Of a DNA stretch of 64,000 nucleotides, positions 1,992 through 42,736 are shown piece by piece. The position numbers and the translations under genes are program-made. The notes under the pieces are model-generated. The model saw nothing but the letters and a program-made list of their open reading frames with translations. It was not told where the DNA came from and did not search any database. The stretch's first letter is position 1, and the number at the start of each line of letters is the position of its first letter. The DNA lies in contig CAJYXJ010000013.1 in the NCBI GenBank assembly GCA_913778085.1, positions 62,001 to 126,000 of the forward strand. Reading direction: 5' to 3'. The DNA comes from an uncultured Chryseobacterium sp. Lineage in GTDB: Bacteria; Bacteroidota; Bacteroidia; Flavobacteriales; Weeksellaceae.

Positions 1992-2744
1992 TTAATTGAC
2001 TTTCGTAAATTTCTGTCGTACCGCTTCATATAAAATTGCTCCGCAGGCAACAGAAACATTTAAAGACTGTGTTTTTCCTTCAATCGGAAGTTTTATTTTT
2101 TCATCGGCATGATGAAGTACTTCTTTGGAAATTCCTGTTTCTTCATTCCCCATCACGATGGCTGAAGGCTCGGTGAAATCGACGTCGTAAATCAGTTTTT
2201 CGGCTTTTTCACTGGCTGCATAAACGGAAATTCCGCTTTGCTGAAGAAAATCTACGACATGAGCAAGGTTAGGAGCCTTACATATTTTCACGTTATATAA
2301 AGCGCCTGCTGATGTTTTAATAGCATCCGAATTAATAGGTGCCGCTCCCTTTTCAGGGATAATCACCGCATCCACTCCTACACATTCTGCGGTTCTGCAG
2401 ATCGCTCCGAAATTTCTGACGTCGGTCAGGCGGTCTAAAATCAGCAGGAATGGCGTTTTTCCTTCTTCAAAAAGCTGAGGCACGATATCCTCCACTTTGT
2501 GAAAAGGAACATCCGAAATAAAGGCCACAACCCCTTGGTGGTTCTTTCTGGTAAAACGGTTCAGTTTTTCAACCGGAACGTAGTTGGGACGGATTTTATT
2601 TTGAGCTAAAATAGCTTTAAGTTCAGCATAAATCGGTCCCTGTAGCGCATTCTGCACGAAGACCTTGTCAATTGTTTTTCCCGCTTCAATAGCTTCAATC
2701 ACGGGACGTAATCCAAAGATGAAATCGTCTTTTTTATCTGTCAT
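1992..2744 (-). CDS. rlmB: 23S rRNA (guanosine-2'-O-)-methyltransferase RlmB (TrmH/SPOUT family)
   Basis: The 250-residue protein has the N-terminal substrate-binding domain (FIFGLRPVIEAIEAGK) and all three SPOUT motifs. These are DRLTDVRNFGAICRTAE near residue 104, IVMGNEETGIS near 195 and IEGKTQSLNVSVACG near 220. The family uses S-adenosylmethionine to methylate the 2'-O of a guanosine in 23S rRNA (G2251 in E. coli). Length and motif order are normal for RlmB. Other TrmH-family rRNA methylases are possible, but the N-terminal domain favours RlmB. An inverted repeat lies just upstream (2769-2830). Confidence 0.88.
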   Translation of the reverse strand: MTDKKDDFIFGLRPVIEAIEAGKTIDKVFVQNALQGPIYAELKAILAQNKIRPNYVPVEKLNRFTRKNHQGVVAFISDVPFHKVEDIVPQLFEEGKTPFLLILDRLTDVRNFGAICRTAECVGVDAVIIPEKGAAPINSDAIKTSAGALYNVKICKAPNLAHVVDFLQQSGISVYAASEKAEKLIYDVDFTEPSAIVMGNEETGISKEVLHHADEKIKLPIEGKTQSLNVSVACGAILYEAVRQKFTKVN

Positions 2745-2768
2745 TTTGATATTTTAAATAATGAATGG

Positions 2769-2830
2769 TCAATGGTCAACTTTACTTCGTAAGTCAATTG
2801 TATTTTTTAAAATTCACATTTGACCATTGA
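2769..2830. repeat. Short intergenic inverted repeat
   Basis: Perfect 11-base arms, TCAATGGTCAA at 2769-2779 and TTGACCATTGA at 2820-2830, flank an A/T-rich 40-base spacer between rlmB and the DinB gene. Simple repeats of this kind recur in other spacers of the window. It has no T-run, so it is not a typical terminator. Confidence 0.6.
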
Positions 2831-2854
2831 CTTGCAAAGCAAAATTCACTTGAA

Positions 2855-3328
2855 CTATCTTCCTTTTTCTCCTAAAATTGCTCTTTTCTGCGCCAACGCA
2901 TATCCATAGTGCAAACCTTCATGCATATTGTTAAAGATAATTGCATCCTGGATGCTTTTCAGGTCCATTCCGAAGCTGGTGGTGTAAGGCGTGTAATCTG
3001 AAAACAGGTCGCTGTCGTAATCCTTCATCAGGATTTTCGAGGTTTCTGTCAGCAGGAATTCCAGATCTTCTACTTCCGACTTCTGGACGTCCAGATTCGG
3101 CAGAGTTCCTTTTTTATAGGTCTCGATCCAGTACTTATCGATTCTGAAAGGGTTTCCGCTCAGGTAATAATGCAGGAGCTGCTGGGTAGCAACCGTATGG
3201 GCAATGTTCCAGTACAGGTTGTTATTGAAACCATCGGGAATCAGCAAAAGATCTTCGTGCGAAGTATTCTGTAAAATATCGAGAAGATTCTTCCGGACCT
3301 GACGGTGCGCTTGAAAATGATAATTCAT
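2855..3328 (-). CDS. DinB family protein
   Basis: The 157-residue protein fits the DinB/YfiT four-helix-bundle family, putative metal-dependent enzymes in which three His residues bind the metal. The helix starts and His positions match: NLYWNIAHTVATQQLLHYYL has the first His and MHEGLHYGYALAQ near the C-terminus has the last. The substrate is unknown; relatives include thiol transferases. It is a single gene with its own promoter box (3349-3379) and stands apart from rlmB. Confidence 0.75.
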   Translation of the reverse strand: MNYHFQAHRQVRKNLLDILQNTSHEDLLLIPDGFNNNLYWNIAHTVATQQLLHYYLSGNPFRIDKYWIETYKKGTLPNLDVQKSEVEDLEFLLTETSKILMKDYDSDLFSDYTPYTTSFGMDLKSIQDAIIFNNMHEGLHYGYALAQKRAILGEKGR

Positions 3329-3348
3329 TTTGCAAATTTTTTAATCAC

Positions 3349-3379
3349 CAAAAATAGTTTAATAAACTGGAAATGACAA
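3349..3379 (-). promoter_or_regulatory. Bacteroidota-type promoter of the DinB gene
   Basis: On the minus strand a TTG (3379-3377) is followed after exactly 20 bases by TATTTTTG (3356-3349). This matches the -33 TTG / -7 TAnnTTTG promoter of Bacteroidota. The DinB start codon lies 20 bases downstream of the box. Confidence 0.6.
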
Positions 3380-3580
3380 TTTTTGAAAGGAGCATTAAAG
3401 TAAAATTTATATATTTTTATGAAAAACGGAAATCATGCTCCTGAATTCTAAGGGATACACCCGTTTGGAATCTTGCAGTAGAGCTGGAACATTTAACAAA
3501 CTTTAACTTAAAGATGGCATTTTTTGTGTTGATTAATGCAAGTATTTATTAGAAATTTACCAATTATTTTAAATAAGACT

Positions 3581-4585
3581 ATGTCAGATACATATCAGGC
3601 GGATGATATTCGTCAGCTCACGGAACAGGTAAAGGAAGCCAACTTCTATTTTTCCCGTCTTCGCGAAGAAATCAACAAAGTAATTATCGGTCAGGAATAT
3701 ATGATCGACCGCCTTTTAGTAGGGCTTTTAGGGAATGGTCACGTTCTTCTGGAAGGGGTTCCGGGACTGGCAAAAACCCTGGCCATCAAAACCCTGGCGG
3801 ATGCGGTACACGGACAGTTTTCGAGAATCCAGTTTACGCCGGATCTTTTGCCTGCAGACGTTGTGGGAACCATGATCTATAATGTGAAAGACAACGATTT
3901 TTCCATTAAAAGAGGTCCTGTATTTGCCAATTTCGTATTGGCGGATGAGATCAACCGGGCCCCGGCCAAAGTACAGTCGGCGCTGTTGGAGGTCATGCAG
4001 GAAAAACAGGTGACTATTGGTGATGAAACCATGAAACTGCCGAAGCCTTTTCTCGTATTGGCTACCCAAAACCCGATCGATCAGGAAGGAACCTACCTGC
4101 TGCCGGAAGCACAAAGCGACCGTTTTATGCTGAAATGTACCATCGATTATCCTAAGTTTGAGGACGAAAGGCAAGTAATGCGGATGGTTTCCACTTCACA
4201 TCAACCGACGGTAAAACCGGTGATTTCCCTGGAGCATATCGTTGCTGCCAAGGAGCTGATCAACCAGATTTATCTTGACGAAAAAATTGAGAAATATATC
4301 CTCGATATGGTGTTTGCCACCCGTTTTCCTGAAAATTACGGCTTGGCCGAACTGAAAAACTATATCGGCTTCGGGGCTTCTCCGAGAGCATCGATTAACC
4401 TGGCCATCGCTTCCAGAGCGTATGCATTCCTGAAGGGAAGAGCTTTCGTTATTCCTGAAGACGTTAAGGCTTTGGCCAAAGATGTGCTGAGACACCGAAT
4501 CGGCCTAACCTTTGAGGCGGAAGCGGAAGAAATTTCATCAGAAGAAATCATCAACAGAATTTTAGCGAAAATCCAGGCTCCGTAA
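3581..4585 (+). CDS. MoxR family AAA+ ATPase
   Basis: The 334-residue ATPase has a Walker A motif GVPGLAKT (residues 59-66), a Walker B in VLADEINRAP, and the sensor region ATQNPIDQEGTYLLPEAQSDRF. MoxR ATPases act as chaperones for assembly of partners with von Willebrand A (vWA) domains. Here it heads a run of DUF58 and vWA (BatA, BatB) genes, the classic MoxR-Bat arrangement. I chose the ATG at 3581 (MSDTYQADD); the reading frame stays open to an ATG at 3536, but that extension (MQVFIRNLPIILNKT) looks unlike the family. The stop overlaps the next start by one base, so it is probably the first gene of the operon. Confidence 0.9.
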   Translation: MSDTYQADDIRQLTEQVKEANFYFSRLREEINKVIIGQEYMIDRLLVGLLGNGHVLLEGVPGLAKTLAIKTLADAVHGQFSRIQFTPDLLPADVVGTMIYNVKDNDFSIKRGPVFANFVLADEINRAPAKVQSALLEVMQEKQVTIGDETMKLPKPFLVLATQNPIDQEGTYLLPEAQSDRFMLKCTIDYPKFEDERQVMRMVSTSHQPTVKPVISLEHIVAAKELINQIYLDEKIEKYILDMVFATRFPENYGLAELKNYIGFGASPRASINLAIASRAYAFLKGRAFVIPEDVKALAKDVLRHRIGLTFEAEAEEISSEEIINRILAKIQAP

Positions 4586-5043
4586 TGGATGAAGTAAGGA
4601 TAAGAAAGGCAGTCCGCGAAGACTGTGCGCCAATGCTGGATCTCATTAAGGAACTGGCTGAATACGAAAAGGCGTTGCATGAAGTTTCGTTAACACTTGA
4701 ACAGTTTACTGAAGACGGGTTCGGAACGGCTCCGGTCTGGGGTGCATTCGTTGCAGAGGCTAATGGGAAAATTGTCGGGATTTCATTGTACTATGACCGG
4801 TATTCTACCTGGAAAGGCAGAAGGCTATACTTAGAAGATCTGGTAGTAACCGAAGAGATGAGGGGAAAACAGATCGGCCGGAAATTATTTGAAGCCACGA
4901 TGGAATACGGAAAGTCAAGGAATTACAGCGGAATGGTTTTTCAGGTGCTGAACTGGAACGAACCGGCTATTAATTTCTATAAAAAATATAGTCCGAAATT
5001 CGATGAGGAATGGTTGAATGTTTCCATTGAGTTCAAAGTTTAA
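4585..5043 (+). CDS. GNAT family N-acetyltransferase
   Basis: The 152-residue protein has the acetyl-CoA binding motif DLVVTEEMRGKQIGRKLFE (R/Q-x-x-G-x-G/A type) and the C-terminal NEPAINFYKK typical of GNAT acetyltransferases. It resembles the diamine/spermidine acetyltransferase-like branch (LYLEDLVV, GMVFQVLNWNEPAINFY). The acceptor substrate cannot be read from sequence. Its ATG overlaps the moxR stop codon, so it is translationally coupled to moxR. That is odd company for a Bat operon. Confidence 0.85.
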   Translation: MDEVRIRKAVREDCAPMLDLIKELAEYEKALHEVSLTLEQFTEDGFGTAPVWGAFVAEANGKIVGISLYYDRYSTWKGRRLYLEDLVVTEEMRGKQIGRKLFEATMEYGKSRNYSGMVFQVLNWNEPAINFYKKYSPKFDEEWLNVSIEFKV

Positions 5044-5151
5044 TGTTCAAGGTTTAAATTTTTATCATTTGTGCTAAAAATTTTCAAACTTAGAAAATTC
5101 CAACTAAAAACGCTGAACCCAAAACATTGAACTTCAAATAAATTAAGTGCT

Positions 5152-6015
5152 ATGCAAATAAAAGATATTGTAAAAAAAGTAAAGCAGATTGAAATCCGTA
5201 CGCGAAAGAAAACGGAGGCTACTTTGATGGGGCAATATCACAGTGCTTTTAAAGGTCAGGGGATGACTTTCTCGGAAGTCCGCCCGTACCAGTTCGGTGA
5301 CGAGATCCGGAGAATCGACTGGAACAAGACCGCCCGTTTCCGCGAACCTTTCGTAAAAGTGATGGAAGAGGAGCGGGAACTGACCATGATGCTGCTCGTT
5401 GATATTTCGGCATCGATGGATTACGGAACCAAAACCCAGCTGAAAAGGGAATATGTAGCAGAAATTGCTGCAAGCCTCGGTTTTTCAGCAGCGGGGAACA
5501 ATGATAAAGTCGGACTTATCCTGTTTGCGGATAAAGTCTATAAAGTTATTCCCCCACAGAAAGGAAGGAAGCATATCCTGTCGATCATCAGTATGATCCT
5601 GACGGCAGATTATGTGCCTGCCGTTTCCAAAATAGATAAAGCGCTGGAATATATGATGGGTATTTTCAAAAGGAAATCTCTGGTTTTTCTTTTTTCAGAT
5701 TTTGAAGATGAATACGATTCCAAAATGCTGCGGGTGGCTTCTAAGAAACATCAGCTCCTGGGGATGCGAATCTACGATGAAAAGGATAATGAAATTCCGG
5801 ATGTGGGCTATACGCTGCTTTATGATGCGGAAACAGGGAAACAGGTCTGGGCAAACACTTCAAGCGCAAGATGGAGGTATACCTTTGCAGAAGCGCAGAA
5901 GCAAAAGCTGAAAGTATTGGAAGAAGATTTTTCCAACAGTTCCGCCAGTTTTATGAATGTGAATACGGGAGCCGATTATTCCAGACTGCTGTATGGTTAT
6001 TTTCAGAAAAAATAA
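5152..6015 (+). CDS. DUF58 domain protein of the Bat locus
   Basis: The 287-residue protein has the DUF58 signature VRPYQFGDEIRRIDWNKTAR (about residues 43-62) followed by a vWA-like fold with the MIDAS motif DISAS (84-88). DUF58 proteins are regular companions of MoxR ATPases and BatA/BatB and probably form part of the same envelope complex. No membrane segment is evident, so it should be cytosolic. The 108-base gap after the GNAT gene holds simple degenerate TTCAA-type repeats and no clear promoter. Confidence 0.88.
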   Translation: MQIKDIVKKVKQIEIRTRKKTEATLMGQYHSAFKGQGMTFSEVRPYQFGDEIRRIDWNKTARFREPFVKVMEEERELTMMLLVDISASMDYGTKTQLKREYVAEIAASLGFSAAGNNDKVGLILFADKVYKVIPPQKGRKHILSIISMILTADYVPAVSKIDKALEYMMGIFKRKSLVFLFSDFEDEYDSKMLRVASKKHQLLGMRIYDEKDNEIPDVGYTLLYDAETGKQVWANTSSARWRYTFAEAQKQKLKVLEEDFSNSSASFMNVNTGADYSRLLYGYFQKK

Positions 6016-6052
6016 ATTCACCGGAAGTGGGCAAGGCTCATTTTAAAATGTA

Positions 6053-6955
6053 TTGAAATTGAAAAAATTAATAGTATTATTCTGTTTTTTAATCTGTGCA
6101 AATGCTTTTTCACAGATCCTTTCCTCCAGCGTGGAAAAGAAAACCATCGCCTTGGGAGAAGTAAACCATATCGTTGTGACGATCAATAATATCCACAATG
6201 AAAAAGTTTCCGCCGCTCCCCAGAACGAACTGCTTCCTTTTCATTTCGAGGAAATTAAAGACAGTATTGCACAGACGCAGGATGTTTATTACAGAAGGAT
6301 CGAATTTACTGTTTTTGATGAGGGGAAATTTACGATTCCTGAACTGGAATTTAAAGTAGGAGGAAAGGTTCTGAAGACTATTCCTTACGAAATTGATGTC
6401 ATCAACACGGCTCAGAAAACAGACCCGATCAATGACATTATGAACAATAAAGAAGTAAAGCTCGAAGTAACCGATTACTGGGAACTGTACAAGTTTTATA
6501 TTCTGGCGGCCATTGCGCTCATCTGCCTGATTATTGCCATCATTATGTTTGTAAGATATGGGCGTAAGAAAAAAAGTTCTCCGGTGGTCACTACAAACCA
6601 GACGCTGAAAGAACTGGATTCCCTGAAAAAGAAAAAATATGTGGAAACCGGAAACTACCGCTCGTTCTATGTGGAGCTGATCGATATTTCAAGAAAATTT
6701 ATCTCCACCCAATACCGTCTGCCGGCAGATGTTCTGCTTACCGATGACCTTATAGATCTGATGAAGAAGAACAATACCATTTCCCAGGAAAATGAGCGCG
6801 TGGTGGAAGAAGTTTTTGTAAGAGGCGATCTTGTGAAATTTGCAAAGACCTTCCCGGACCAAAAGATTATGGAAAAGGATCTCGCGGATATTACGGCATT
6901 TGTGAAGCGGTCATCAAAGGATTTGGAATTTGAAAACCTGAGGAAAGATGCTTAA
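6053..6955 (+). CDS. Bat-locus membrane protein (DUF4381/BatD-N-like)
   Basis: The 300-residue protein has an N-terminal signal peptide (KLIVLFCFLICANAFSQ), a beta-rich extracytoplasmic domain resembling the start of BatD (SSVEKKTIALGEVNHIVVTI), one transmembrane helix (about residues 149-167) and a cytoplasmic helical tail. In MoxR/Bat loci a protein of this design sits between the DUF58 gene and batA. No ATG fits this frame; the start is probably TTG at 6053 or 6059. The end overlaps batA by 8 bases, supporting coupling. Confidence 0.75.
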   Translation: MKLKKLIVLFCFLICANAFSQILSSSVEKKTIALGEVNHIVVTINNIHNEKVSAAPQNELLPFHFEEIKDSIAQTQDVYYRRIEFTVFDEGKFTIPELEFKVGGKVLKTIPYEIDVINTAQKTDPINDIMNNKEVKLEVTDYWELYKFYILAAIALICLIIAIIMFVRYGRKKKSSPVVTTNQTLKELDSLKKKKYVETGNYRSFYVELIDISRKFISTQYRLPADVLLTDDLIDLMKKNNTISQENERVVEEVFVRGDLVKFAKTFPDQKIMEKDLADITAFVKRSSKDLEFENLRKDA

Positions 6956-7940
6956 TTTTGAATTTTACAGTCCGTGGTTTTTATTGCTTTTTATCCTGTT
7001 TATTCCGCTTCTGTTTAGGGATATCAGCAAACAGAAAAGGAAAGGCATCAAAGTGCCGACAGTTAAAAATATGGGTGACAGCAGTGGAATCCATATTGTG
7101 ATGTTTTTCCTGAAGATTTCGAAATACCTGATCCTGTCGGCTCTGATCATTGCCATGGCAAGGCCAAGAACCTTCACAATTTCTCAGGATCGGGACGATA
7201 CTAAAGGAATCGATATTATGCTTTCCGTAGACGTTTCGTTAAGTATGCTGGCCAAGGATCTTTCGCCGGACCGTTTGACAGCTTTAAAAGATATCGCCAT
7301 TAAATTTGTTAATAAAAGACCGAATGACAGGATCGGTTTGGTGGCTTACTCCGGAGAAGCTTTTACAAAAGTCCCGGTAACTTCCGACCATCAGGTGGTT
7401 GTAGATGAATTGAACAGCCTTAATCCGCTGGAATTACAGCCGGGAACGGCAATCGGTGAAGGTCTTTCCGTAGCCGTCAACCATTTGAAGAACAGTAAAG
7501 CTAAAAGCAAAATCATCATTCTGATGACGGATGGGGTCAATACGATAGAAAATGCGATGCCGCCTGCCATAGCAGCGGAACTTGCCAAGAATAACGGGAT
7601 TAAAGTCTATTCCATCGGAATCGGAACCAACGGATATGCGCTGATGCCCACGCAACAGGATATCTTCGGAGATCTGGTTTTTACGGAAGCGGAAGTGAAA
7701 ATCGATGAACCGGTTTTAAAGGAAGTGGCCCAGATGACGGGTGGAAAATACTTCAGGGCCACATCAAACAGCAGTCTCGAAGAAGTATATGACGAGATCA
7801 ACCAGTTGGAAAAATCGGACGTGAAAGTGGCAAAGCTCTTTAATTATCAGGAATATTTTAAGATTTTCCTTTGGGTAGCTTTGGGCTTGCTTTTTCTGGA
7901 CGCTTTACTGAGATGGGTATTTTATAAAATTTTAAGCTAA
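6948..7940 (+). CDS. batA: vWA domain membrane protein BatA
   Basis: The 330-residue protein has N-terminal hydrophobic helices (about 8-23 and 54-70), a vWA domain with MIDAS motif DVSLS (95-99) and LMTDGVN, and a C-terminal transmembrane helix (about 306-325). BatA is an inner-membrane protein whose vWA domain faces the periplasm; Bat proteins were linked to aerotolerance in Bacteroides. It overlaps the previous gene by 8 bases and batB by one base. Confidence 0.88.
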   Translation: MLNFEFYSPWFLLLFILFIPLLFRDISKQKRKGIKVPTVKNMGDSSGIHIVMFFLKISKYLILSALIIAMARPRTFTISQDRDDTKGIDIMLSVDVSLSMLAKDLSPDRLTALKDIAIKFVNKRPNDRIGLVAYSGEAFTKVPVTSDHQVVVDELNSLNPLELQPGTAIGEGLSVAVNHLKNSKAKSKIIILMTDGVNTIENAMPPAIAAELAKNNGIKVYSIGIGTNGYALMPTQQDIFGDLVFTEAEVKIDEPVLKEVAQMTGGKYFRATSNSSLEEVYDEINQLEKSDVKVAKLFNYQEYFKIFLWVALGLLFLDALLRWVFYKILS

Positions 7941-8947
7941 TGGATTGGTATTTAGGGAATTATTGGTATTTATTGCTGCTGCTGCTTTTGCCGCTGCTGG
8001 CTGCCTTTCTGATCCGTTATCTGAAATGGAAAAAGAAAAAAAGGACGGTTTTTGCAGACAGCCAGTTTCATGAGCATTTGTTTGAAAAAAAATCGGGTTT
8101 TACGAAATTCTTTCCTGCCCTGTACCTGCTGGCCGTCTTGTTCCTGATTTTTTCAATCATCGACCTGCTGAGCGGTTCGGAAGAAATAAAGACCAGCCAG
8201 AAACTGAATAACGTTATTTTCATGATGGATGTTTCCAACTCCATGAATGCGGAAGATATTAATCCGAGCCGCCTGACCGAAGCGAAAAACCTGATGCTTC
8301 AGACGATGCAGAAAATGAAGAACGATAAAGTCGGGATCGTAATTTTCGCGGGACAGGCAACTTCGATTATGCCGTTAACCACTGATTACGGCTCAGCGGA
8401 AACCTACATCGGCGGTATTGAAACGAATTCCATGCAGATCCAGGGGACTGACTTTTTAAATGCGATGAAAATAGCCGTCGAGAAATTTAAAAATGTAAGC
8501 AAAGACGGGCGGAAAGTCGTTTTGTTAAGCGACGGTGAAGATAACGAAGGAAATGATGATGCTGCAATTCGATTAGCCAGGAAAGAAGGGATCATGATCA
8601 CTTCCGTGGGAATCGGAACAGAGGAGGGGGCTCCGGTACCGGAATATGTTTTCGGCCAGCTGATGGGATATAAAAGCGATATGAACGGGCAGACCGTGAT
8701 TTCCAAAAGACAGACGGAAGCCCTTAGAAAAATGGCAGATGCTACCGGCGGAACCTATATCGACGGAAATAATATTAATGAAGCACCAGACCGGATTGTG
8801 GATGCTTTAAAAAAGAAATCGGGATCCTCGGAAACGATGGTAAAATCTCAGAATGCCAACCATTATTACCAGTATTTTCTTGCGGTTTCCCTGTTTTTCT
8901 TCTTTCTGATTTATATTTTTAATCCCAAAAGAGATTTTAATCTGTAA
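7940..8947 (+). CDS. batB: vWA domain membrane protein BatB
   Basis: The 335-residue protein has the same design as BatA: N-terminal helices (about 9-26 and 59-75), MIDAS motif DVSNS (97-101), LLSDGEDNEG and a C-terminal membrane helix (about 309-328). BatA and BatB are paralogues expected to work in one membrane complex. The start codon overlaps the batA stop. The order A then B follows standard Bat loci. Confidence 0.88.
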   Translation: MDWYLGNYWYLLLLLLLPLLAAFLIRYLKWKKKKRTVFADSQFHEHLFEKKSGFTKFFPALYLLAVLFLIFSIIDLLSGSEEIKTSQKLNNVIFMMDVSNSMNAEDINPSRLTEAKNLMLQTMQKMKNDKVGIVIFAGQATSIMPLTTDYGSAETYIGGIETNSMQIQGTDFLNAMKIAVEKFKNVSKDGRKVVLLSDGEDNEGNDDAAIRLARKEGIMITSVGIGTEEGAPVPEYVFGQLMGYKSDMNGQTVISKRQTEALRKMADATGGTYIDGNNINEAPDRIVDALKKKSGSSETMVKSQNANHYYQYFLAVSLFFFFLIYIFNPKRDFNL

Positions 8948-9032
8948 AATCCACGATCATTGTCTCAGTTTCAGTCAATTACTTTAACCTAGTTTTAACA
9001 AATAAAACGCTGTTTATTAACATATAAAGGAA

Positions 9033-9040
9033 TAATTTTG
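9033..9040 (+). promoter_or_regulatory. -7 promoter box upstream of batC
   Basis: TAATTTTG matches TAnnTTTG and ends six bases before the batC ATG at 9047. No well-spaced TTTG is seen upstream. It could give batC-batD an internal promoter with almost no 5' leader. The box also contains the TTG codon that would otherwise look like an upstream start. Confidence 0.45.
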
Positions 9041-9046
9041 CACATA

Positions 9047-9793
9047 ATGAATACTAAAATCATTTTTTTGTCGTTTATTACTGCTTTCCTATGCTCAGGC
9101 TTCCTGTTTGGGCAGGAAAACTACCGTACCCTCGTGTATGAAGGGAACGAGAAATTCAACGGCAAAGATTATGACGGTGCCTCTGTAAAATATCTGGAAG
9201 CTATCCGGAAGAACAGCAAAGAATTTACAGGGCATTATAATTTAGGAAACGCATTGTATAAAAGTAAAAAATATGAAGAGGCCAAAGCAGAATTTGAGAC
9301 CGCACAGAAGCTGGCACAGACCCTTCCGGACAAAGCAGCTGCCCTTCATAATCTAGGGAATACGTACATGCAGATGAAGCAGCCGGAAAAGGCAGCGGAA
9401 ACTTACAGGCTATCCCTGAAGCAAAACCCGTACAGCGAAACAACAAGAAAAAATTACGAAATTGCGAAGCTGAAAGAAAAGGAAAACCAGCAAAAGCAAC
9501 AGCAGAAGAATAACTCCGGTAAAGGAGGCGGCGGTGGTAAAGATCAGCAACAGAATGATGATCAGAAAGGAGGCCCTAAAGACCAGAAACAGGATCAGGG
9601 ACAGGGCCAGCAGAATCAGGGGAAAGGTCAGGGTAACGACCCTAACAAAAACCAAAACAATGAAGGAAAAATTCCTAAAGGCCTCGAAAATCAGATACTC
9701 AATAAAGTTAGCGATAAAGAAAGAGAAACTGCCAAAAGGATTTTAAATAAAAATTCTTATTCGATGCCTGAGAGCAACGAGAAAGATTGGTGA
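9047..9793 (+). CDS. batC: TPR protein BatC
   Basis: The 248-residue protein has a signal peptide (FLSFITAFLCSGFLFGQ), then tetratricopeptide repeats between about residues 25 and 140 (GHYNLGNALYKSKKYEEAK, ALHNLGNTYMQMKQPEKA). A low-complexity Gln/Lys/Asn/Gly-rich tail follows. TPRs suggest a periplasmic scaffold for the Bat complex. I chose the ATG at 9047 because an in-frame TTG at 9038 lies inside the -7 box. The stop overlaps the batD ATG (ATGA-type junction), so the two are coupled. Confidence 0.85.
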   Translation: MNTKIIFLSFITAFLCSGFLFGQENYRTLVYEGNEKFNGKDYDGASVKYLEAIRKNSKEFTGHYNLGNALYKSKKYEEAKAEFETAQKLAQTLPDKAAALHNLGNTYMQMKQPEKAAETYRLSLKQNPYSETTRKNYEIAKLKEKENQQKQQQKNNSGKGGGGGKDQQQNDDQKGGPKDQKQDQGQGQQNQGKGQGNDPNKNQNNEGKIPKGLENQILNKVSDKERETAKRILNKNSYSMPESNEKDW

Positions 9794-11532
9794 TGCAGAA
9801 CAGAATAATTTACATATTGCTCCTTTTCACATCCGTAATTTCTTACGGGCAGGTAAATCTTACCGTAACACCGGATAAGACAACCTACAACGGGAAAGAT
9901 ATCGTAAATCTGAGTATTGTTCTGGAAATATCAGGAAGCGAAAATAATCCGCAGACTAAATTGCGTCTGCCGGATTTTTCAAAATTCAACTTAATCGGAA
10001 CGGGCTCCGTAAACAACGCGTTTGTGGATCCGGAAACCAATACTGTCGTTTCACAGTCTGTTACCAGACTTGCCCTTGAGCCCAAACAGAAAGGAAAACT
10101 CAAAATAGGATCATTCCTGATTACCATTAATAACAAGATCTATAAGACCGAACCTTTTGAAATTCTGGTAAAAGATCTTGAAAAAAAGACCTCGGTAGCA
10201 GCCAATACTTCGAAAGATGTATACCTGAACATGGAAATCGAAGACCGTGACGTGTATCAGGACCAACCCACTATTGCTGTGTTGAAGGTGTATTCAAAGA
10301 ATATGGATAATTTCAGAAAAGTTAGAAATATCCATCTTCCCGAACAGGAAAATCTGGATATTTTTCCGATCAGTTTTGCCAAATCGGAGATTGATCCTTC
10401 GGATAACGGAAGTATGGCTTCGCAGATCCTGGCCGTTTTCATGGTATTTCCCAATGAAGCCGGTTATGTAGATATCCCAGGTGTTTCCGCATCTTTTAAT
10501 TCTTATGCTCATAAAGATCATATTGTTTCTAACAAAGTAAAGATCAATGTAAAGAAGCTTCCTGAAGGTTCGCCAGATTGTTTTAAAAATGCAGTCGGAA
10601 ACTTTAACGTAAGCGTCGTTAGTACTTCAAAAGAAAAAGTCGAGGTTAAAAAACCGATGAATGTATTGGTAAAAGTGACCGGCGAAGGAAATCTAAAAAG
10701 CATGGAGCTTCCTAAAATCGCTTCTTCTCCCGACTATGAAGTTTTCGCGCCGAAGATCACTTCAAGGGTCATCGTGGGAACTGAAGGGATGAGAGGAGAA
10801 GTGCTCGCCAATTATCTGGTGATTCCTAAAAAAGCAGGGGAGATTACTATTAAAACAGAGCATTTCGCATTTTTTGATCCATCAGATAAAGAATATGTGG
10901 ACCTGGGTGAACAGTCTCTTGCTGTGAATGCCTTTTCCCATGATCAGATTCTCGAATCGCGTACCACCGTTGAAAAAGTAAATGAATATACCAATACATT
11001 CCTGGAAACGGTTAATACGCCTGTTTTGAAAACAACTTCACTCAAAGTAAAGGAGAAAAGCAAGTTTCACTGGAATATTCTCTTCATAAATATCTCCATT
11101 CTTATAGCCCTTTTTATAGCTTATATCGGATTTAAAACATGGCAAAGAAAAAAAACATCCGTTAAAAAAACTGCAAGTCCTGAACCTATCGGATCCATTG
11201 CGGAAACCGAAAGAGAAATCAGGGAAAGACAAAAAGTGGATATAAATGATTATTTCAGCTATTTGGAAAATCTTAAAGATAATTCGGAATATGATAAGTT
11301 TTTCCTGACTTTTGATGAATTGGACCGGGAAGTTAGAAAACAGTCTGCAGAAGGGTCTTCAGAGGATTTCGCCAATGTTCTGGAAAATCGGGACGGATCT
11401 GCTGTAGCAGAAGAATACAGAAGTCTCATCCAGCGGGTACAGATCGAAAAATATACACCGGTAAAATCGCCGGAAGCTATGGATGAACTGCTGGCAGCTG
11501 TTGTTAATTTATATTCTAAGATTAGCAAATAA
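9793..11532 (+). CDS. batD: BatD family protein
   Basis: The 579-residue protein has a signal peptide (IIYILLLFTSVISYGQ) and repeated beta-sandwich domains starting VNLTVTPDKTTYNGKDIVNLSI. One transmembrane helix (about residues 423-443) and a cytoplasmic helical tail follow. This is the normal BatD (oxygen tolerance family) layout. The ATG at 9793 shares bases with the batC stop; in-frame TTG and GTG codons just upstream are less likely. It ends the core Bat genes; MarC follows after 44 bases. Confidence 0.88.
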   Translation: MQNRIIYILLLFTSVISYGQVNLTVTPDKTTYNGKDIVNLSIVLEISGSENNPQTKLRLPDFSKFNLIGTGSVNNAFVDPETNTVVSQSVTRLALEPKQKGKLKIGSFLITINNKIYKTEPFEILVKDLEKKTSVAANTSKDVYLNMEIEDRDVYQDQPTIAVLKVYSKNMDNFRKVRNIHLPEQENLDIFPISFAKSEIDPSDNGSMASQILAVFMVFPNEAGYVDIPGVSASFNSYAHKDHIVSNKVKINVKKLPEGSPDCFKNAVGNFNVSVVSTSKEKVEVKKPMNVLVKVTGEGNLKSMELPKIASSPDYEVFAPKITSRVIVGTEGMRGEVLANYLVIPKKAGEITIKTEHFAFFDPSDKEYVDLGEQSLAVNAFSHDQILESRTTVEKVNEYTNTFLETVNTPVLKTTSLKVKEKSKFHWNILFINISILIALFIAYIGFKTWQRKKTSVKKTASPEPIGSIAETEREIRERQKVDINDYFSYLENLKDNSEYDKFFLTFDELDREVRKQSAEGSSEDFANVLENRDGSAVAEEYRSLIQRVQIEKYTPVKSPEAMDELLAAVVNLYSKISK

Positions 11533-36870: not shown

Positions 36871-37659
36871 ATGCAAATCTTAAATTCAAAAATATTCGGC
36901 GAAAACCTTTCTTCAACACCACTGCTGGTATTCCACGGCCTGTTTGGAATGCTTGATAACTGGGGAACCTTCGGAAAAGATTTCGGGGAATTCATGCCAA
37001 CCCATCTGATCGATCTCCGCAATCATGGAAGAAGCTTTCATTCGGAAGAAATGTCTCACGATGATTTGGCAGACGATATTCTCCGGTATATGGATCATTA
37101 CGGATTGGAAAAAGCACATATTCTGGGGCATTCGTTAGGTGGAAAAGCCGTGATGCAGTTTGCGATAAAATACCCTGAAAAAGTAGAGCGGTTAATCGTG
37201 GTCGATATTTCACCAAAAGCATATCCGCCGCATCACCAGGGAATCATTAAAGCTTTGGAGACCGTAGATTTCGATACGGTAAATTCCAGAAGTGAAGTGG
37301 AGGCGGTGCTGAGCCAGTATATTCCGGAAAGATCCACCATTCAGTTTTTAACCAAAAACCTGTATTGGGATGACAATAAAAAGCTGAACTGGAGATTTAA
37401 TCTGAAAACATTATCGGAAAAATACAACCAGTTTGTATCAAATGCCATAAAATATGGAGTTTTCGAGGGGGAAACTTTATTCATTGCCGGGGAAAAATCC
37501 CATTATATCCTTCCGCAGGACGAATTTTCCATCAGGCAGCAGTTTCCGAAAGCGAAATTCGTTACGGTAAAAAATGCCGGTCATTGGGTGCAAGCTGAAA
37601 ATCCGGTCGATTTTGCAAAGGTGGTAAAAGAATTTTTACAGATCCCATATCCTGCATAA
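36871..37659 (+). CDS. Alpha/beta hydrolase (YbfF-like esterase)
   Basis: The 262-residue protein has the YbfF-type start LLVFHGLFGMLDNWG (oxyanion region), THLIDLRNHGRSFH, the nucleophile elbow GHSLG (86-90, Ser88) and a late His in NAGHWVQAE. Relatives hydrolyse short acyl esters or acyl-CoAs. The substrate is unknown. It ends 106 bases before the first graspetide precursor on the same strand but shares no recognisable function with it. Confidence 0.88.
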   Translation: MQILNSKIFGENLSSTPLLVFHGLFGMLDNWGTFGKDFGEFMPTHLIDLRNHGRSFHSEEMSHDDLADDILRYMDHYGLEKAHILGHSLGGKAVMQFAIKYPEKVERLIVVDISPKAYPPHHQGIIKALETVDFDTVNSRSEVEAVLSQYIPERSTIQFLTKNLYWDDNKKLNWRFNLKTLSEKYNQFVSNAIKYGVFEGETLFIAGEKSHYILPQDEFSIRQQFPKAKFVTVKNAGHWVQAENPVDFAKVVKEFLQIPYPA

Positions 37660-37765
37660 TGCCTCAATTTCAATTGTTAAAATTTTCTTAAAAAAGACAT
37701 TTATTCTTCATGGTGTGAATTTTTTTAATACTTTAGTGACTCCTAAATCACTAAATATTAATACT

Positions 37766-37981
37766 ATGGAAAATAAAAAATCCAAAAAGCCTTTCTTCGC
37801 ATCTTTTCTTGAAAAGCAGATTCAGGACCCTGAGAAAATCAAGGGAGGATCAGGTATTGTTAAGTCAGCGGCAGAAGACAATATCACAGCCGTGCTAAAA
37901 GATACTGTAACGGCTCCGAATCTTGATGCCGTAACGATGAGATATCCGTCCGACAGCGATGCCGCTGAAGATCTGGATTAA
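37766..37981 (+). CDS. Graspetide (microviridin-type) precursor peptide A1
   Basis: The 71-residue peptide has the leader KKPFFASFLEKQ (residues 7-18, compare PFFARFLE of microviridin leaders) and a double-Gly end at 27-28. The core region has ring-forming modules spaced by 8 residues: TAVLKD at 41, TAPNLD at 49 and TMRYPSD at 57. In the last module the lysine of microviridin TxKYPSD is Arg59, so the usual lysine amide cannot form. An acidic tail (SDAAEDLD) offers Asp/Glu partners. I chose the ATG at 37766; an upstream in-frame extension to 37715 does not match the leader family. Confidence 0.88.
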   Translation: MENKKSKKPFFASFLEKQIQDPEKIKGGSGIVKSAAEDNITAVLKDTVTAPNLDAVTMRYPSDSDAAEDLD

Positions 37982-38010
37982 TGGACTCTCACACAATTCT
38001 TTATCAATAA

Positions 38011-38077
38011 AAAACTGTTTCCTTCTCAGGACAGTGTTTCATTTATTCTAGAGGCGAAAGCAAGGGGTGAGAAACAC
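38011..38077 (+). promoter_or_regulatory. Two overlapping hairpins between precursors A1 and A2
   Basis: AAAACTGT (38011-38018) can pair with ACAGTGTT (38031-38038), and GTGTTTC (38034-38040) can pair with GAAACAC (38071-38077). They share 38034-38038, so only one can form. This could set the level of read-through or processing between precursor genes; no strong T-run is present. Role uncertain. Confidence 0.3.
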
Positions 38078-38111
38078 TAGCTTATTATCAAATTAATAAT
38101 CCCACCATATC

Positions 38112-38327
38112 ATGAAAAGTAAAAATTCTAAAAAGCCATTCTTCGCATCTTTTCTGGAGAAGCAGATCCAAGAGCCTCAAAAAGTAAAAGGAGGATCCGA
38201 AACTTCTACCGGCGTTCTCAAAGATGCCGTAACCGCGCCTTTGGCCGACAGCCTTACGAAACCGGGAGAAGATACGGTAAGCATGAAATATCCGTCCGAC
38301 AGTGATGAAGGCGGAAACGAATTATAA
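38112..38327 (+). CDS. Graspetide precursor peptide A2
   Basis: The 71-residue peptide has the same leader (KKPFFASFLEKQ, residues 7-18; KVKGG ending at 28) as A1. The core has four modules at exactly 8-residue spacing: TGVLKD at 33, TAPLAD at 41, TKPGED at 49 and SMKYPSD at 57. In the final module Ser57 replaces the usual Thr, with Lys59 retained. The tail SDEGGNEL supplies acid residues. It is probably a substrate of the two ligases at 38946-40899. Confidence 0.9.
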   Translation: MKSKNSKKPFFASFLEKQIQEPQKVKGGSETSTGVLKDAVTAPLADSLTKPGEDTVSMKYPSDSDEGGNEL

Positions 38328-38365
38328 AAACCAGATTGAAAACAACCATTCAAATTACAAACATT

Positions 38366-38608
38366 ATGAAAAAGAAAGACAAAAAGCCGTTTTTCGCTTC
38401 TTTTCTCGAGAAGCAGATTGAGCATCCTGAAGGCATTCAGGGCGGAGCGACAACTCCGAAGACCGATCTTATTACCATTCCGGAAAGAGATGGAGTAACT
38501 TCCCCTTCAGTGGACGGGCCAATCACTTTGAAATATCCTTCAGACAGCGATGATGGTGGATTTGATCCGGTGCCGCCCGGTGATGACCCTCATACTCCGG
38601 CCCCTTAA
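38366..38608 (+). CDS. Graspetide precursor peptide A3
   Basis: The 80-residue peptide (ATG 38366) has the leader KKPFFASFLEKQ (6-17) and GG at 26-27. Modules are TTPKTD at 29, TIPERD at 37, TSPSVD at 45 and TLKYPSD at 54, so the first three are spaced by 8. The final module keeps Thr and Lys. A Pro/Asp-rich extension (FDPVPPGDDPHTPAP) follows the core and is absent from A1, A2 and A4. An in-frame codon upstream at 38336 is not a likely start. Confidence 0.9.
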   Translation: MKKKDKKPFFASFLEKQIEHPEGIQGGATTPKTDLITIPERDGVTSPSVDGPITLKYPSDSDDGGFDPVPPGDDPHTPAP

Positions 38609-38641
38609 TCGTAAATAAAAGTACAATCAAAATTAAATTAT

Positions 38642-38866
38642 ATGAAAAACAAGAATTCAAAAAAGAAACCTTTTTTCGCATCGTTTTTAGAAAAGCAGAT
38701 TCAGGATCCTGAAAAAATCAAAGGTGGAACAGACGTTTCTTCTCCTCTTCAGGACGGAGTAATTGTTACCAACAAAATTACCGATCAACCTACAAAACCT
38801 ACTTTGGATATGGTTCAGACCATGAAATATCCATCTGATGGTGATGATGATGTTCCTACAGTTTAA
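38642..38866 (+). CDS. Graspetide precursor peptide A4
   Basis: The 74-residue peptide has the leader KKPFFASFLEKQ (8-19) and KIKGG ending at 29. Modules are SSPLQD at 33, TNKITD at 43, TKPTLD at 51 and TMKYPSD at 60. The final core is followed by GDDDVPTV, giving consecutive Asp residues as acid partners. It is the last precursor before a terminator-like hairpin (38902-38931) and the ligase genes. Confidence 0.9.
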   Translation: MKNKNSKKKPFFASFLEKQIQDPEKIKGGTDVSSPLQDGVIVTNKITDQPTKPTLDMVQTMKYPSDGDDDVPTV

Positions 38867-38901
38867 TAAATTTTCAGTACACATTTACAAATTATATCTG
38901 G

Positions 38902-38931
38902 GGGAAACTTATATTCTAAGTTTCCCTTTTT
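38902..38931 (+). terminator. Intrinsic terminator or attenuator between precursors and ligases
   Basis: Arms GGGAAACTT (38902-38910) and AAGTTTCCC (38918-38926) form a perfect 9-bp stem with a seven-base loop, followed by a T-run to 38931. The first ligase ATG is only 15 bases further on. Partial termination here would give more precursor than enzyme mRNA. Confidence 0.75.
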
Positions 38932-38945
38932 AATAAAACGGCTAC

Positions 38946-39902
38946 ATGATTCTCTGCATCACCCACTCACAGGATTTTTACAATATCGATCTGTTCTTTA
39001 ATTATTTATACTCGAAGGGTATTCCTTATTTCAGGCTGAATTCCGATCGTTTGAACCATTTTCAGAAAATCAATCTTCAAGAAGATTTTTTTGAACTGAC
39101 AGATGAATCCGGAAACACCCTTGATTCCAGAACGGTAAAAGCGGTCTGGCACCGGAAGTCCTGGGGGATTTCTATTCCCGAAGAGCTGGATGAAACCTAT
39201 GCTAAAATTTTCCTGAAAGAATATGCTAGCCTCCGCTATAATCTTTTTACTTTATTGGAAGACCTTCCATGGATCAATCCGCTACAGAACGAAAACAAAA
39301 TAGACGGCAATAAAATCCATCAGCTGAAACTGGCGAAAAAGCATAATTTAACCGTTCCGCAGACCCTATTTTCCAATGATCCGGAGAAAATAACGGAATT
39401 TTTCCACCAAAGCTGCAACGGGAAGATGATTGCCAAGCTTCACGGGGTTATTTCAAAATCGATGGGCGGGGAAAATCTTCTTTCCACCCATATTATTGAT
39501 GAAGATTCTCTTGAATATATTGATGATATCGAGTACTGCCCGATGATCTTTCAGCCTTATATTGAAAAAGAATATGAATTGAGAATCGTCTATTTGGACG
39601 GAGAATTTTTTACCGGAAAAATCAACAATAGCGAACATGCGGACTGGCGGATTGCCCGGGGAGATTATTTCTGGTCCGGATATACACTGCCTGAAAATAT
39701 TAAAGCCAACCTTACATCGATGATGAAAGAAATGGGTTTGTACATCGGAGCAATTGATATGATCAGAAGCAAAGACGGAAACTATTATTTCCTGGAAGTA
39801 AATCCGCAGGGAGAATGGGGCATGCTGCAGAAAGAGCTGGGTTTCCCGATTGCGGAAAGGATAGCCGACAACCTTATCAAAAGAATGAAAACCAATGAAT
39901 AA
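38946..39902 (+). CDS. MdnB/MvdC-like ATP-grasp graspetide ligase (amide-forming type)
   Basis: The 318-residue ATP-grasp protein begins ILCITHSQDFYNIDLFFNYL and contains VWHRKSWGISIPEEL. It ends with GAIDMIRSKDGNYYFLEVNPQGEWGMLQ, a metal/ATP-binding region that matches the microviridin MdnB/MvdC branch rather than MdnC/MvdD. In microviridins that enzyme makes the Lys-Glu/Asp amide after the ester rings are set. The PMIFQPYIEKEYELRIVYLDG segment (about 200-220) contributes to the ATP site. It overlaps the next ligase by 8 bases, so they are coupled. The exact rings made cannot be known. Confidence 0.85.
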   Translation: MILCITHSQDFYNIDLFFNYLYSKGIPYFRLNSDRLNHFQKINLQEDFFELTDESGNTLDSRTVKAVWHRKSWGISIPEELDETYAKIFLKEYASLRYNLFTLLEDLPWINPLQNENKIDGNKIHQLKLAKKHNLTVPQTLFSNDPEKITEFFHQSCNGKMIAKLHGVISKSMGGENLLSTHIIDEDSLEYIDDIEYCPMIFQPYIEKEYELRIVYLDGEFFTGKINNSEHADWRIARGDYFWSGYTLPENIKANLTSMMKEMGLYIGAIDMIRSKDGNYYFLEVNPQGEWGMLQKELGFPIAERIADNLIKRMKTNE

Positions 39903-40899
39903 AATTTTAATCATCACCCATACCGGAGATAACTTCTCCGTTGAAAAAGTAACGGAATATATCAGCAAAAACGGATGCGAGGTTATTCGTTTCGATGTTG
40001 ATCTCTATCCTCTGAAAAATAAACTGTCAACCCGTTTTGAAGATGGGGAATGGATTACCATACTCGAAACACCGGAAACAAAATACCGCCTGGATGATAT
40101 TTCAGCCATCTGGTACAGGAGAGCTTACAATATCGGAAACGGACTGAAAGAGGAACTCGACGGAAAATTCCTGGGCGCCGCCTTGGGAGAGATCCGAAAT
40201 ACGCTTTTCGGTTTTTTTGAATCAGCCGATGTATATTCGTTAGGAAAACCGAGCGTTTACAGAAGGCTGGACAGTAAAGAAGAGCAACTGAAAATTGCCG
40301 ATAAGATCGGGCTAAAAATTCCGGAGACCTGCATCACCAATAATCCTGAAGAAGCCAAACAGTTTGTGCTGAAACATCAGAATGTAATTGCCAAAATGCA
40401 GACCGGTTTTGCTATTTACGAAGATGGAGTGGAAAGCGTGGTATTTACCAATGTCATCAGTGAGGAAAAGCTCGAAGAACTGGATACGCTCATGTATTGC
40501 CCCATGCAGTTTCAGAAGAAGATCGAAAAGAAAAAAGAGCTTCGCGTAACCATCGTCGGACGTGATGTCTATGCCTTCGAAATCGATTCCCAACAGTCGG
40601 AGAGGGCGAAAGTCGATTGGAGAAAAGATGGAATCAACCTGATCGATAAGTGGATTCCGACGGAACTTCCCGCAGATATCGAATCGAAATTGCTGGAACT
40701 TTTGGATGTCTACCACGTCGATTACGGAGCAATTGACATGATCGTTTCACCGCAAGACTATTACTATTTCATCGAAATCAATGCAGCGGGAGAATTTTTC
40801 TGGCTGGATAACCTTACGGAAGGCAACCTGATCTCAAAAAGTATTGCCGATGTGCTTTGCGACAAAGCTCCGAGAAGGAACAATATGGTTCTTGTTTAA
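39895..40899 (+). CDS. MdnC/MvdD-like ATP-grasp graspetide ligase (ester-forming type)
   Basis: The 334-residue ATP-grasp protein starts ILIITHTGDNFSVEKVTEYI and has AIWYRRAYNIG, CPMQFQKKIEKKKELRVTIVG and GAIDMIVSPQDYYYFIEINAAGEFFWLD. These match the MdnC/MvdD branch, which installs Thr/Ser-Asp/Glu ester rings and recognises the PFFARFLE-type leader helix. The ester enzyme normally acts before the amide enzyme. A related enzyme from Chryseobacterium is reported to make single and bicyclic esters on multicore precursors (chryseoviridin), which fits the repeated modules here. Confidence 0.88.
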   Translation: MNKILIITHTGDNFSVEKVTEYISKNGCEVIRFDVDLYPLKNKLSTRFEDGEWITILETPETKYRLDDISAIWYRRAYNIGNGLKEELDGKFLGAALGEIRNTLFGFFESADVYSLGKPSVYRRLDSKEEQLKIADKIGLKIPETCITNNPEEAKQFVLKHQNVIAKMQTGFAIYEDGVESVVFTNVISEEKLEELDTLMYCPMQFQKKIEKKKELRVTIVGRDVYAFEIDSQQSERAKVDWRKDGINLIDKWIPTELPADIESKLLELLDVYHVDYGAIDMIVSPQDYYYFIEINAAGEFFWLDNLTEGNLISKSIADVLCDKAPRRNNMVLV

Positions 40900-41305
40900 T
40901 TTACAGCTTTAAACATCCAGGGCTTCAAAATCTATTTAAAATAAAAGGTTTGAACTTTTAAGCTAATTTATATTCTTGCAGATTTGACAGATATAATAGA
41001 TCATATTTTGCATTTATATCTAAGTAATTTCAATATTAAACATTTTCTAACCTTCAAGGTTTCAAAAACCTTGAAGGTTTATTTTTACTATGCAGGGCTG
41101 AACCCTAATCCCTTTTTTAGTTTGCCGATTTCTATATTTTATCGTTATCCTGTTTTATGAATGGAAGCAGTATTCTGTTATAAATTAAAAACGGCTGATT
41201 TTTCAGATAATTTCTTAAAAAAATCTAATTCTCACCATCATTTTTTCAAAGAATGGGAAGGATTATCTAAAAATAAACTTAATTTTATCATCTAAAATGT
41301 GATAG
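40900..41305. other. 406-base intergenic stretch
   Basis: The stretch is A/T-rich with no credible ORF. It contains one strong terminator (41049-41086) and otherwise nothing I can assign. The promoter of the AraC-type gene must be in its 3' half, but no clear TAnnTTTG box is visible. Confidence 0.6.
41049..41086 (+). terminator. Intrinsic terminator after the graspetide ligase genes
   Basis: Perfect arms AACCTTCAAGGTTT (41049-41062) and AAACCTTGAAGGTT (41066-41079) with a three-base loop, followed by TATTTTT. It closes the graspetide locus. Confidence 0.88.
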
Positions 41306-42736
41306 GTGTCTAAATTCTTTTCTCTAATTTTTGTTGCGGTATATGCTCTTGTTTTGGCCGGGACCGGAAGTCCGGAAAAGAATGAACTTTTCACAAAGGC
41401 AGACAGTGAGATCGTTCTGTCTCCGGAACGGACGATGGAAGTGCTGGATTATATCGAAAAGAATTTTCCGCTGGATGATGCAGAGGCAGGCCGGCTGATG
41501 TATCTTCGGGCCAAATCGCTCTATTATCAGAACAATCTTACGGATGCATTAAAAATAATCTCGAAAGAAAATGGGCATTTTTCTCCCGGTATTATTATTT
41601 TAAGAAGAAACATCCTGTATTCATTTAATATTAAAGATACTTTCTCTCCGGAGAATATGCGGGGAAACAGCGATTACCGGTTTTCCGAAAAAGTGGGACA
41701 GCTGCTCAGCCGCCTAGCCGGTAATGGGAAGCCAGTCGGTTCTCCGGAACTGTCGGAGATCCTGAAAGAAATGACGTCGCATCATCCTGAGATACAACGG
41801 GAAAATATGCTTAACCTTACGGAATATCTTGCTCAGCATGATCCCGACGAGCGATACCGGGATTTTCTGAACCGGATCGGAAGCTTCTATCTGAATGATC
41901 CGGCGTTCAAAATGCTGTATGCCAAGTATCTGATGAAAAACAACAGGACTGGTGAGGCAGGGATAATCATAACAGGACTTCCCAAGGAAATTCTGGAGCA
42001 AAGCACAAATGTATACCTTAAATACCGGTATTATGATCTTCTGGTTACTTACTATTCAAAAACCGGTCAGCATCTCGATTATAAGGAATACGTACAGAAA
42101 AAGGAAGCTTTATTCAGTACCATCGACAGGGTGACCTTTTCAGCCAAGAACAAATGGTTCGGCATATTGGAAGAAAATTACAGAAATGAACTGAATTCAT
42201 CAATAATTACCAGACGGTATATTTTATTTTCTGTTTTGGGTATTGCCGTACTGCTGATTACTTTTCTTGCCGTAAGGTTTTTGCAGATCAGAGCCCGGAT
42301 TAAGGAATACGAAAATTTTACCATCAAGCTCAGGTTCAACCAGGATAAAAAAGCAGTTCAGCCTCAGGCGATCTCCGAGAAAACGGAGACCATGCTTATG
42401 CAGAAGTTGAAGGATTTTGAGAAAACTAATGATTTCATTAGTTCCGATATTTCTCTTCAGAACCTTGCCAAAAAACTGGATACCAACACTAAATATTTAT
42501 CGGAAATCATCAACAAGCATAAGCAGAAAAATTTCAATGCCTACATCAACGAATTGAGGATCAATTATATTACCGGTAAATTAAAAGAGAATCCCATATA
42601 CAGGAATTACAAAATAAAATATCTGGCAGAAGAAAGCGGATTTTCCACGCACAGTGCCTTTGCTGCAGCATTTAAGACGGTAAATGGCATATCGCCGGCT
42701 CATTACATCCAATTGTTAAATCATAAAGAAGAATGA
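41306..42736 (+). CDS. Membrane-anchored AraC-type regulator with TPR-like sensor region
   Basis: The 476-residue protein starts at GTG 41306 with a signal-anchor (FFSLIFVAVYALVLAG). A helical TPR-like region (about 25-290), a transmembrane helix (about 300-320) and a C-terminal AraC HTH domain follow (ISLQNLAKKLDTNTKYLSEII near 390 and KIKYLAEESGFSTHSAFAAAFK near 435). This sensor design is common in Bacteroidota. It overlaps the next gene by 4 bases (ATGA junction). It lies between the graspetide locus and a large T9SS protein gene, so it could control either; that is inference. Confidence 0.85.
   Translation: MSKFFSLIFVAVYALVLAGTGSPEKNELFTKADSEIVLSPERTMEVLDYIEKNFPLDDAEAGRLMYLRAKSLYYQNNLTDALKIISKENGHFSPGIIILRRNILYSFNIKDTFSPENMRGNSDYRFSEKVGQLLSRLAGNGKPVGSPELSEILKEMTSHHPEIQRENMLNLTEYLAQHDPDERYRDFLNRIGSFYLNDPAFKMLYAKYLMKNNRTGEAGIIITGLPKEILEQSTNVYLKYRYYDLLVTYYSKTGQHLDYKEYVQKKEALFSTIDRVTFSAKNKWFGILEENYRNELNSSIITRRYILFSVLGIAVLLITFLAVRFLQIRARIKEYENFTIKLRFNQDKKAVQPQAISEKTETMLMQKLKDFEKTNDFISSDISLQNLAKKLDTNTKYLSEIINKHKQKNFNAYINELRINYITGKLKENPIYRNYKIKYLAEESGFSTHSAFAAAFKTVNGISPAHYIQLLNHKEE

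Follow-up and report, generated by a model that had tools for sequence, protein, structure and literature searches.

Introduction

The window, that is, the whole 64,000-nucleotide stretch of Chryseobacterium DNA analysed here, carries four short genes followed by those of two ATP-grasp ligases, and it evokes the question of what kind of graspetide is made from precursors built of recurring T/S-to-D modules, and of whether such modules would be set free as separate small rings or remain on one chain. It is very likely, in our judgement, that this is a chryseoviridin-type Chryseobacterium graspetide locus, in which the ligase CdnC would form the esters and CdnB an amide in three of the precursors (A2-A4), yielding one multi-ring inhibitor peptide per precursor. 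The family of the locus, its ligases, its synteny, and the phase of its modules along with the conservation of that phase are direct observations; for every bond, cutting step, export route and target we infer the account given below.

The gene cluster and its ligases

The cluster comprises the following genes, all on the forward strand:

36871..37659, +, alpha/beta hydrolase (PF00561, 95.9 bits), conserved neighbour upstream of the precursors
37766..37981, +, precursor A1, 71 aa (NF033738 65.2 bits, PF12559 25.8 bits)
38112..38327, +, precursor A2, 71 aa (NF033738 64 bits, PF12559 26.6 bits)
38366..38608, +, precursor A3, 80 aa (NF033738 62.4 bits, PF12559 27.7 bits)
38642..38866, +, precursor A4, 74 aa (NF033738 72.2 bits, PF12559 38.2 bits)
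38946..39902, +, CdnB-like ligase of the MvdC family (ATP-grasp, 318 aa), predicted to form the lactam
39895..40899, +, CdnC ligase of the MvdD family (ATP-grasp, 334 aa), predicted to form the esters of both the single rings and the terminal core

All four precursors score above the curated cut-offs of both NF033738, the microviridin/marinostatin family (62.4-72.2 bits; cut-off 26 bits), and PF12559 (25.8-38.2 bits; cut-off 21 bits). The two ligase genes overlap and lie 3' of the precursors. CdnC aligns with the crystallised CdnC (7mgv_A) over residues 1-334 of 334, with 646.7 bits, and reaches 474.4 bits against TIGR04184, just under the curated cut-off of 475; the CdnB-like ligase scores 405.7 bits against TIGR04185, under the curated cut-off of 425, and 199.3 bits against AMdnB (7m4s). 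A phmmer search of the PDB with precursor A2 found nothing. An earlier note on this DNA had recognized multicore graspetide precursors related to chryseoviridin, a reading borne out by the profile scores and by the end-to-end match of CdnC.

The open reading frame list begins A1 at a GTG (37715); the ATG at 37766 was taken as the start, because the leader then has the same length as those of relatives. On the 3' side of CdnC, gene 41306-42736 encodes a protein with a C-terminal AraC-type HTH (PF12833, 44.5 bits), and it was left out of the cluster because only 4 of the 79 loci compared have a match to it, some of these loci ending short of its place. A search of the genome for C39 transporters/peptidases gave five matches, the nearest approximately 63 kb off on the same contig, and none adjoining the precursor cluster. 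A hairpin suspected in the 133 bases between A1 and A2 folds no better than shuffles (z -0.75), and Rfam yielded no match within 37600-41400.

The order pdxJ, hydrolase, four precursors, CdnB, CdnC is common to the window and to C. gregarium DSM 19109 (locus L129), with pdxJ, hydrolase and ligases displaying 78-93% identity (CdnC, 83.8%; CdnB, 78.3%), and the gene ahead of pdxJ in both is one that we take to be mscS-like. In 79 loci, taken from the best 80 of 96 matches and with partial matches counted, the hydrolase and pdxJ are present in 79, CdnB in 78 and CdnC in 76, the gaps being loci that are ended by contig ends (L112, L114, L173). Of 174 genomes of the genus, 145, among them that of the window, contain a precursor match, while in a phylum-wide sample NF033738 matched 8 of 395 genomes, seven from Chryseobacterium and one from another family of the same order.

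It is of note that contig C69 of genome G000 carries, at approximately 2617-10219 (L004, L189), another ATP-grasp ligase-like gene, with a C39 peptidase match roughly 4 kb off and a neighbour that presumably ends in SPASM-like cysteine motifs; this region is possibly a second, different graspetide-type locus.

Modules of the four precursors

Alignment of A1-A4 reveals 29 invariant columns, 18 of which lie in the part up to the GG. A PFFAxFLE leader and a GG ahead of the core are present in all four (in A1, PFFASFLEKQ, with the GG at 27-28). Between the GG and the last core, [T/S]xxxxD modules start at residues 41 and 49 in A1, at 33, 41 and 49 in A2, at 29, 37 and 45 in A3, and at 33, 43 and 51 in A4, and the terminal cores start at 57, 57, 54 and 60, respectively. 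Each of the donor positions given in the earlier note was thus recovered, as were its approximately 15 potential macrocycle sites: 11 upstream T/S-x4-D modules and four terminal TxK/RYPSD cores. When the residues of each GG-to-core stretch were shuffled, the mean was 2.68 modules and the maximum 8, none of 20,000 shuffles reaching 11. The spacing had been described as nearly constant, which is fair, as 8 of the 11 donor-to-donor steps measure eight residues, but a strict octad does not hold, two steps being of nine and one of ten; likewise, the microviridin-like TxKYPSD described as the last module does not apply to A1, whose core is TMRYPSD. The rings expected from this pattern are the following:

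A1: predicted rings T41-D46 and T49-D54; terminal core TMRYPSDSD (T57), marinostatin type
A2: predicted rings T33-D38, T41-D46 and T49-D54; core SMKYPSDSDE (S57); possible Lys59/Glu66 lactam pair
A3: predicted rings T29-D34, T37-D42 and T45-D50; core TLKYPSDSDD (T54); possible Lys56/Asp63 pair
A4: predicted rings S33-D38, T43-D48 and T51-D56; core TMKYPSDGDD (T60); possible Lys62/Asp69 pair

Several putative single-ring modules thus precede one microviridin-like core, and this layout distinguishes the cluster from the microviridin class II system of Anabaena PCC 7120. PMC5934393 describes AMdnA as likewise holding several cores per precursor, all served by one ester ligase, but each of its three cores is of the microviridin type and bears up to two lactones, whereas the window's upstream modules appear to be single rings, with one microviridin-like core at the peptide end. 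Not one of the 270 precursors compared below, the four of the window among them, has the two or more TxKYPSD-type cores that would place it in class II, each having a single one. As characterized in PMC13039773, class III precursors are mostly from Bacteroidetes, with GG leaders, often C39 transporters, and long cores of which only the C-terminus is microviridin-like; the placement of the window precursors in class III is our own reading of that description.

A close known counterpart is the chryseoviridin locus of C. gregarium DSM 19109, which, according to PMC8939145, has four distinct precursors; the paper also describes four clades over related species, a conserved part, TxxxxDxxxTxKxPSDxD[DE], and a variable part in which one to three further linkages are possible. 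The events that it finds most often are the tandem copying of whole precursor genes and the duplication or deletion of segments 6-10 residues long. Repeating units in chryseoviridin are also mentioned in PMC12291112 and PMC13003496. The C. gregarium locus and the window share gene order, leader, GG, octad modules, terminal core and both ligases, and differ in module counts and sequences per precursor and in the Arg core of A1, which has no acid seven residues on. In addition, the place 3' of CdnC occupied in the window by the AraC-type regulator is taken in C. gregarium by a 337-aa ORF, probably the epimerase named in PMC8939145, and two more small ORFs lie there ahead of pdxJ. In the C. gregarium locus, four modules spaced by exactly eight residues lead up to the core of the first precursor. 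The octad rule, considered as a novelty, was therefore rejected, since that locus itself has it and PMC8939145 gives the motif; the same applies to the mixture of octads with a final bicyclic-type core, raised in the earlier note, which is already the layout of the chryseoviridin locus.

Conservation of the eight-residue register

If the register matters, it should be kept in orthologues, a check that the earlier note had called for. Distinct precursors numbering 272 were gathered from 188 loci by the leader pattern, relatives with other leaders thus lying outside the set; they come from 99 genomes, drawn from the best-scoring part of the 145 with a precursor match, and from the 79 loci, which overlap with these in species, identical sequences being counted once across both sets. 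Five of the 272 failed the first terminal-core pattern, leaving 267 rows for the analysis of Asp-to-Asp spacing; three of the five, with H for Y, were then restored to give 270 rows, and two truncated precursors were kept out.

In the 267 precursors, successive Asp residues ahead of the core lie eight apart in 477 of 831 cases, compared with 45 in shuffles (maximum 66) that preserve composition only; the other common spacings are 7 (121), 1 (70) and 9 (57). As the precursors are related to one another, these register counts do not represent independent events; after thinning to 80% similarity, the 105 precursors left show a spacing of eight in 187 of 315 cases, versus 17 after shuffling (maximum 32). 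In the same 105, Thr or Ser stands five residues before Asp in 359 of 384 cases, which points to selection on the T/S-D pair, and four residues before it in 179 of 389, so that five-residue rings would be possible at many of these Asp residues.

A walk upstream from the core of the 270 precursors identified 905 modules, two to four per precursor in 269 of them, with steps of eight residues in 664, nine in 228, ten in 12 and seven in one; the phase is thus kept. This walk favours six-residue rings and two-residue spacers, and its 904 six-residue rings out of 905 are biased accordingly, while the Asp spacing and the T/S counts at -5 are independent of it. Three-residue spacers are the last spacer in 170 of 228 cases, the final residue of a two-residue spacer is V or I in 576 of 665, and Pro occupies ring position 3 in 571 of 904. 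Read in this manner, the octad consists of a putative ring of six residues and a spacer of two, and represents a mode rather than a law.

TMKHPSD takes the place of TMKYPSD in three precursors (L067/L133, L108, L145), all of which have four modules in octad phase ahead of it. The two truncated precursors, in L029 (G026) and L156 (C. defluvii DSM 14219), have leader and GG and no terminal core, ending in TITWPHIDIPTTS, and are perhaps decaying copies.

These counts bear on the idea that modification in the cell is confined to the terminal core, the repeats ahead of it being spacer or relic. Such a role could account for the loss of Thr from the first module of A1 and for an upstream part that is more variable than the core, as noted in PMC8939145, but it is hard to reconcile with the T/S found at -5 of Asp in so large a share of 105 dissimilar precursors, or with the legend to Fig. 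7 of that paper, in which the highlighted positions are experimentally determined linkages; we regard it as scarcely credible.

One chain or separate units

The earlier note had also proposed that the precursors act as polyproteins whose spacers are cut after cyclisation, each octad being freed as a single-ring peptide next to one larger unit. Modules of near-equal size in an in-phase repeat are what such a scheme would predict; however, the spacers are nearly all of two or three residues, and the preference of the two-residue ones for a final V or I looks like a ligase template rather than a cutting site. No repeated cutting site was seen by eye between modules, and a GG between modules is present in none of the four window precursors. 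Among the 270, a GG between leader GG and core occurs in 17, and of five that were inspected four have it inside a TKPGGD ring and the fifth has it at the start. Chryseoviridin, moreover, has been reported as a single peptide, with four consecutive five- or six-residue rings followed by a microviridin-like core, reportedly formed in N-to-C order with templating elements of two or three residues next to each ring. Release as separate units is thus disfavoured and, in our view, very unlikely, and one multi-ring chain per precursor is the reading retained here.

An arginine core and a decayed module in A1

In A1, Arg replaces the lactam-forming Lys of the core, and the acid seven residues on is gone, leaving TMRYPS; A1 is the only window precursor with a core of this marinostatin type, devoid of the Lys/acid lactam pair. 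The 260 precursors with core Lys all have Asp or Glu at +7, and the ten with core Arg all have Ala (9) or Ser (1) there, so that in each of the 270 the Lys and the acid are either both present or both absent. This pairing would fit the microviridin amide, whose partners are given as Lys40-Glu47 in PMC7823629. On a tree with few columns and many unresolved forks, the ten Arg precursors form one side of a branch (support 92), which amounts to one change; the coupling is therefore suggestive only, reflecting a single joint event, retained in several genomes, rather than ten. Of the 79 loci, seven have an Arg precursor, and every one of these retains CdnB together with one or more Lys siblings.

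Comparison with marinostatin, of the PF12559 Inhibitor_I10 family, is instructive. Its residues P4-P4' are F-A-T-M-R-Y-P-S, with a Ki of 1.5 nM for subtilisin (PMC9623506, Table 3), and TMRYPS of A1 equals its P2-P4' residues. Marinostatin is described as having no lactam in PMC13039773, and absence of MdnB likely leads to marinostatin according to PMC7823629. A1 would similarly be expected to carry two core esters and no lactam, but it differs in having predicted upstream rings and an operon that retains the lactam ligase.

One octad upstream of its first intact module, A1 carries a decayed one, K33-S-A-A-E-D38 (codons 33-38, window positions 37862-37879). Position 33 is Thr in the nine other Arg-type precursors, three of which are one octad longer and were matched there from the leader and not from the core; A1 has K33 and keeps S34 and D38, and S34 could still close a five-residue ring. 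The Arg core with its lost +7 acid, and this decayed fourth module, may be new details: in the parts of the literature consulted no mention was found of an Arg-type core with lost acid, and the figures or supplements of PMC8939145 could show one.

These observations suggest a reading to which we lean by a small degree: that one operon and one ligase pair would give two end types, A1-type precursors having switched from microviridin (tricyclic) to marinostatin (bicyclic) through coupled replacement of K by R and loss of the +7 acid to A or S, with CdnB kept for the siblings and the octad array serving as a ruler that holds the donors in register for CdnC.

A further precursor, of 81 aa, was observed in genome G229, the one from another family of the same order in the phylum-wide sample (L201, 1411-1656, reverse strand). 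It has a PFFANFLE leader and two TMKYPSD cores, with a module of the single-ring type ahead of each (TSVLSD, TKPSLD), and adjoins an ATP-grasp-like ORF; it is a possible hybrid of the class II and chryseoviridin layouts. Both of its cores have Lys with Glu at +7, in agreement with the pairing and adding no independent K-to-R event.

Proposed biosynthesis and product

Biosynthesis would begin with binding of the PFFASFLEK leader by CdnC, which would link the side chain of each upstream Thr or Ser with the Asp at +5, forming six-residue ester rings: three consecutive rings per precursor, or two, perhaps three, in A1. CdnC would next close the terminal core through T-to-D and S-to-D esters, and CdnB could add the amide between Lys and the Glu or Asp seven residues on in A2, A3 and A4, and not in A1. 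Removal of the leader on export would probably involve a C39 peptidase that cuts at the GG and whose gene lies elsewhere in the genome, and each precursor most likely yields a single multi-ring peptide.

The expected target is a subtilisin-, elastase- or chymotrypsin-like serine protease, engaged via the terminal core with Met or Leu as P1, and Met or Leu does directly follow the core donor in 253 of 270 precursors. If the upstream rings were to bind as marinostatin does, their Pro would fall at P1', which would be unfavourable for canonical inhibition, and the terminal core is for that reason expected to be the inhibitory part. In C. herbae (locus L183), microviridin went undetected in cells or medium by shotgun proteomics (PMC10459008).

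The window cluster is of the already described chryseoviridin kind, encoding probable protease inhibitors, and opens no new class. For the family, comparison over 99 genomes and 79 overlapping loci reveals that chryseoviridin precursors prefer an eight-residue register for their single-ring modules, with V or I before the donor; and A1 (R/A) and A2 (K/E), encoded in the same operon, constitute a natural pair for the residue requirements of CdnB.
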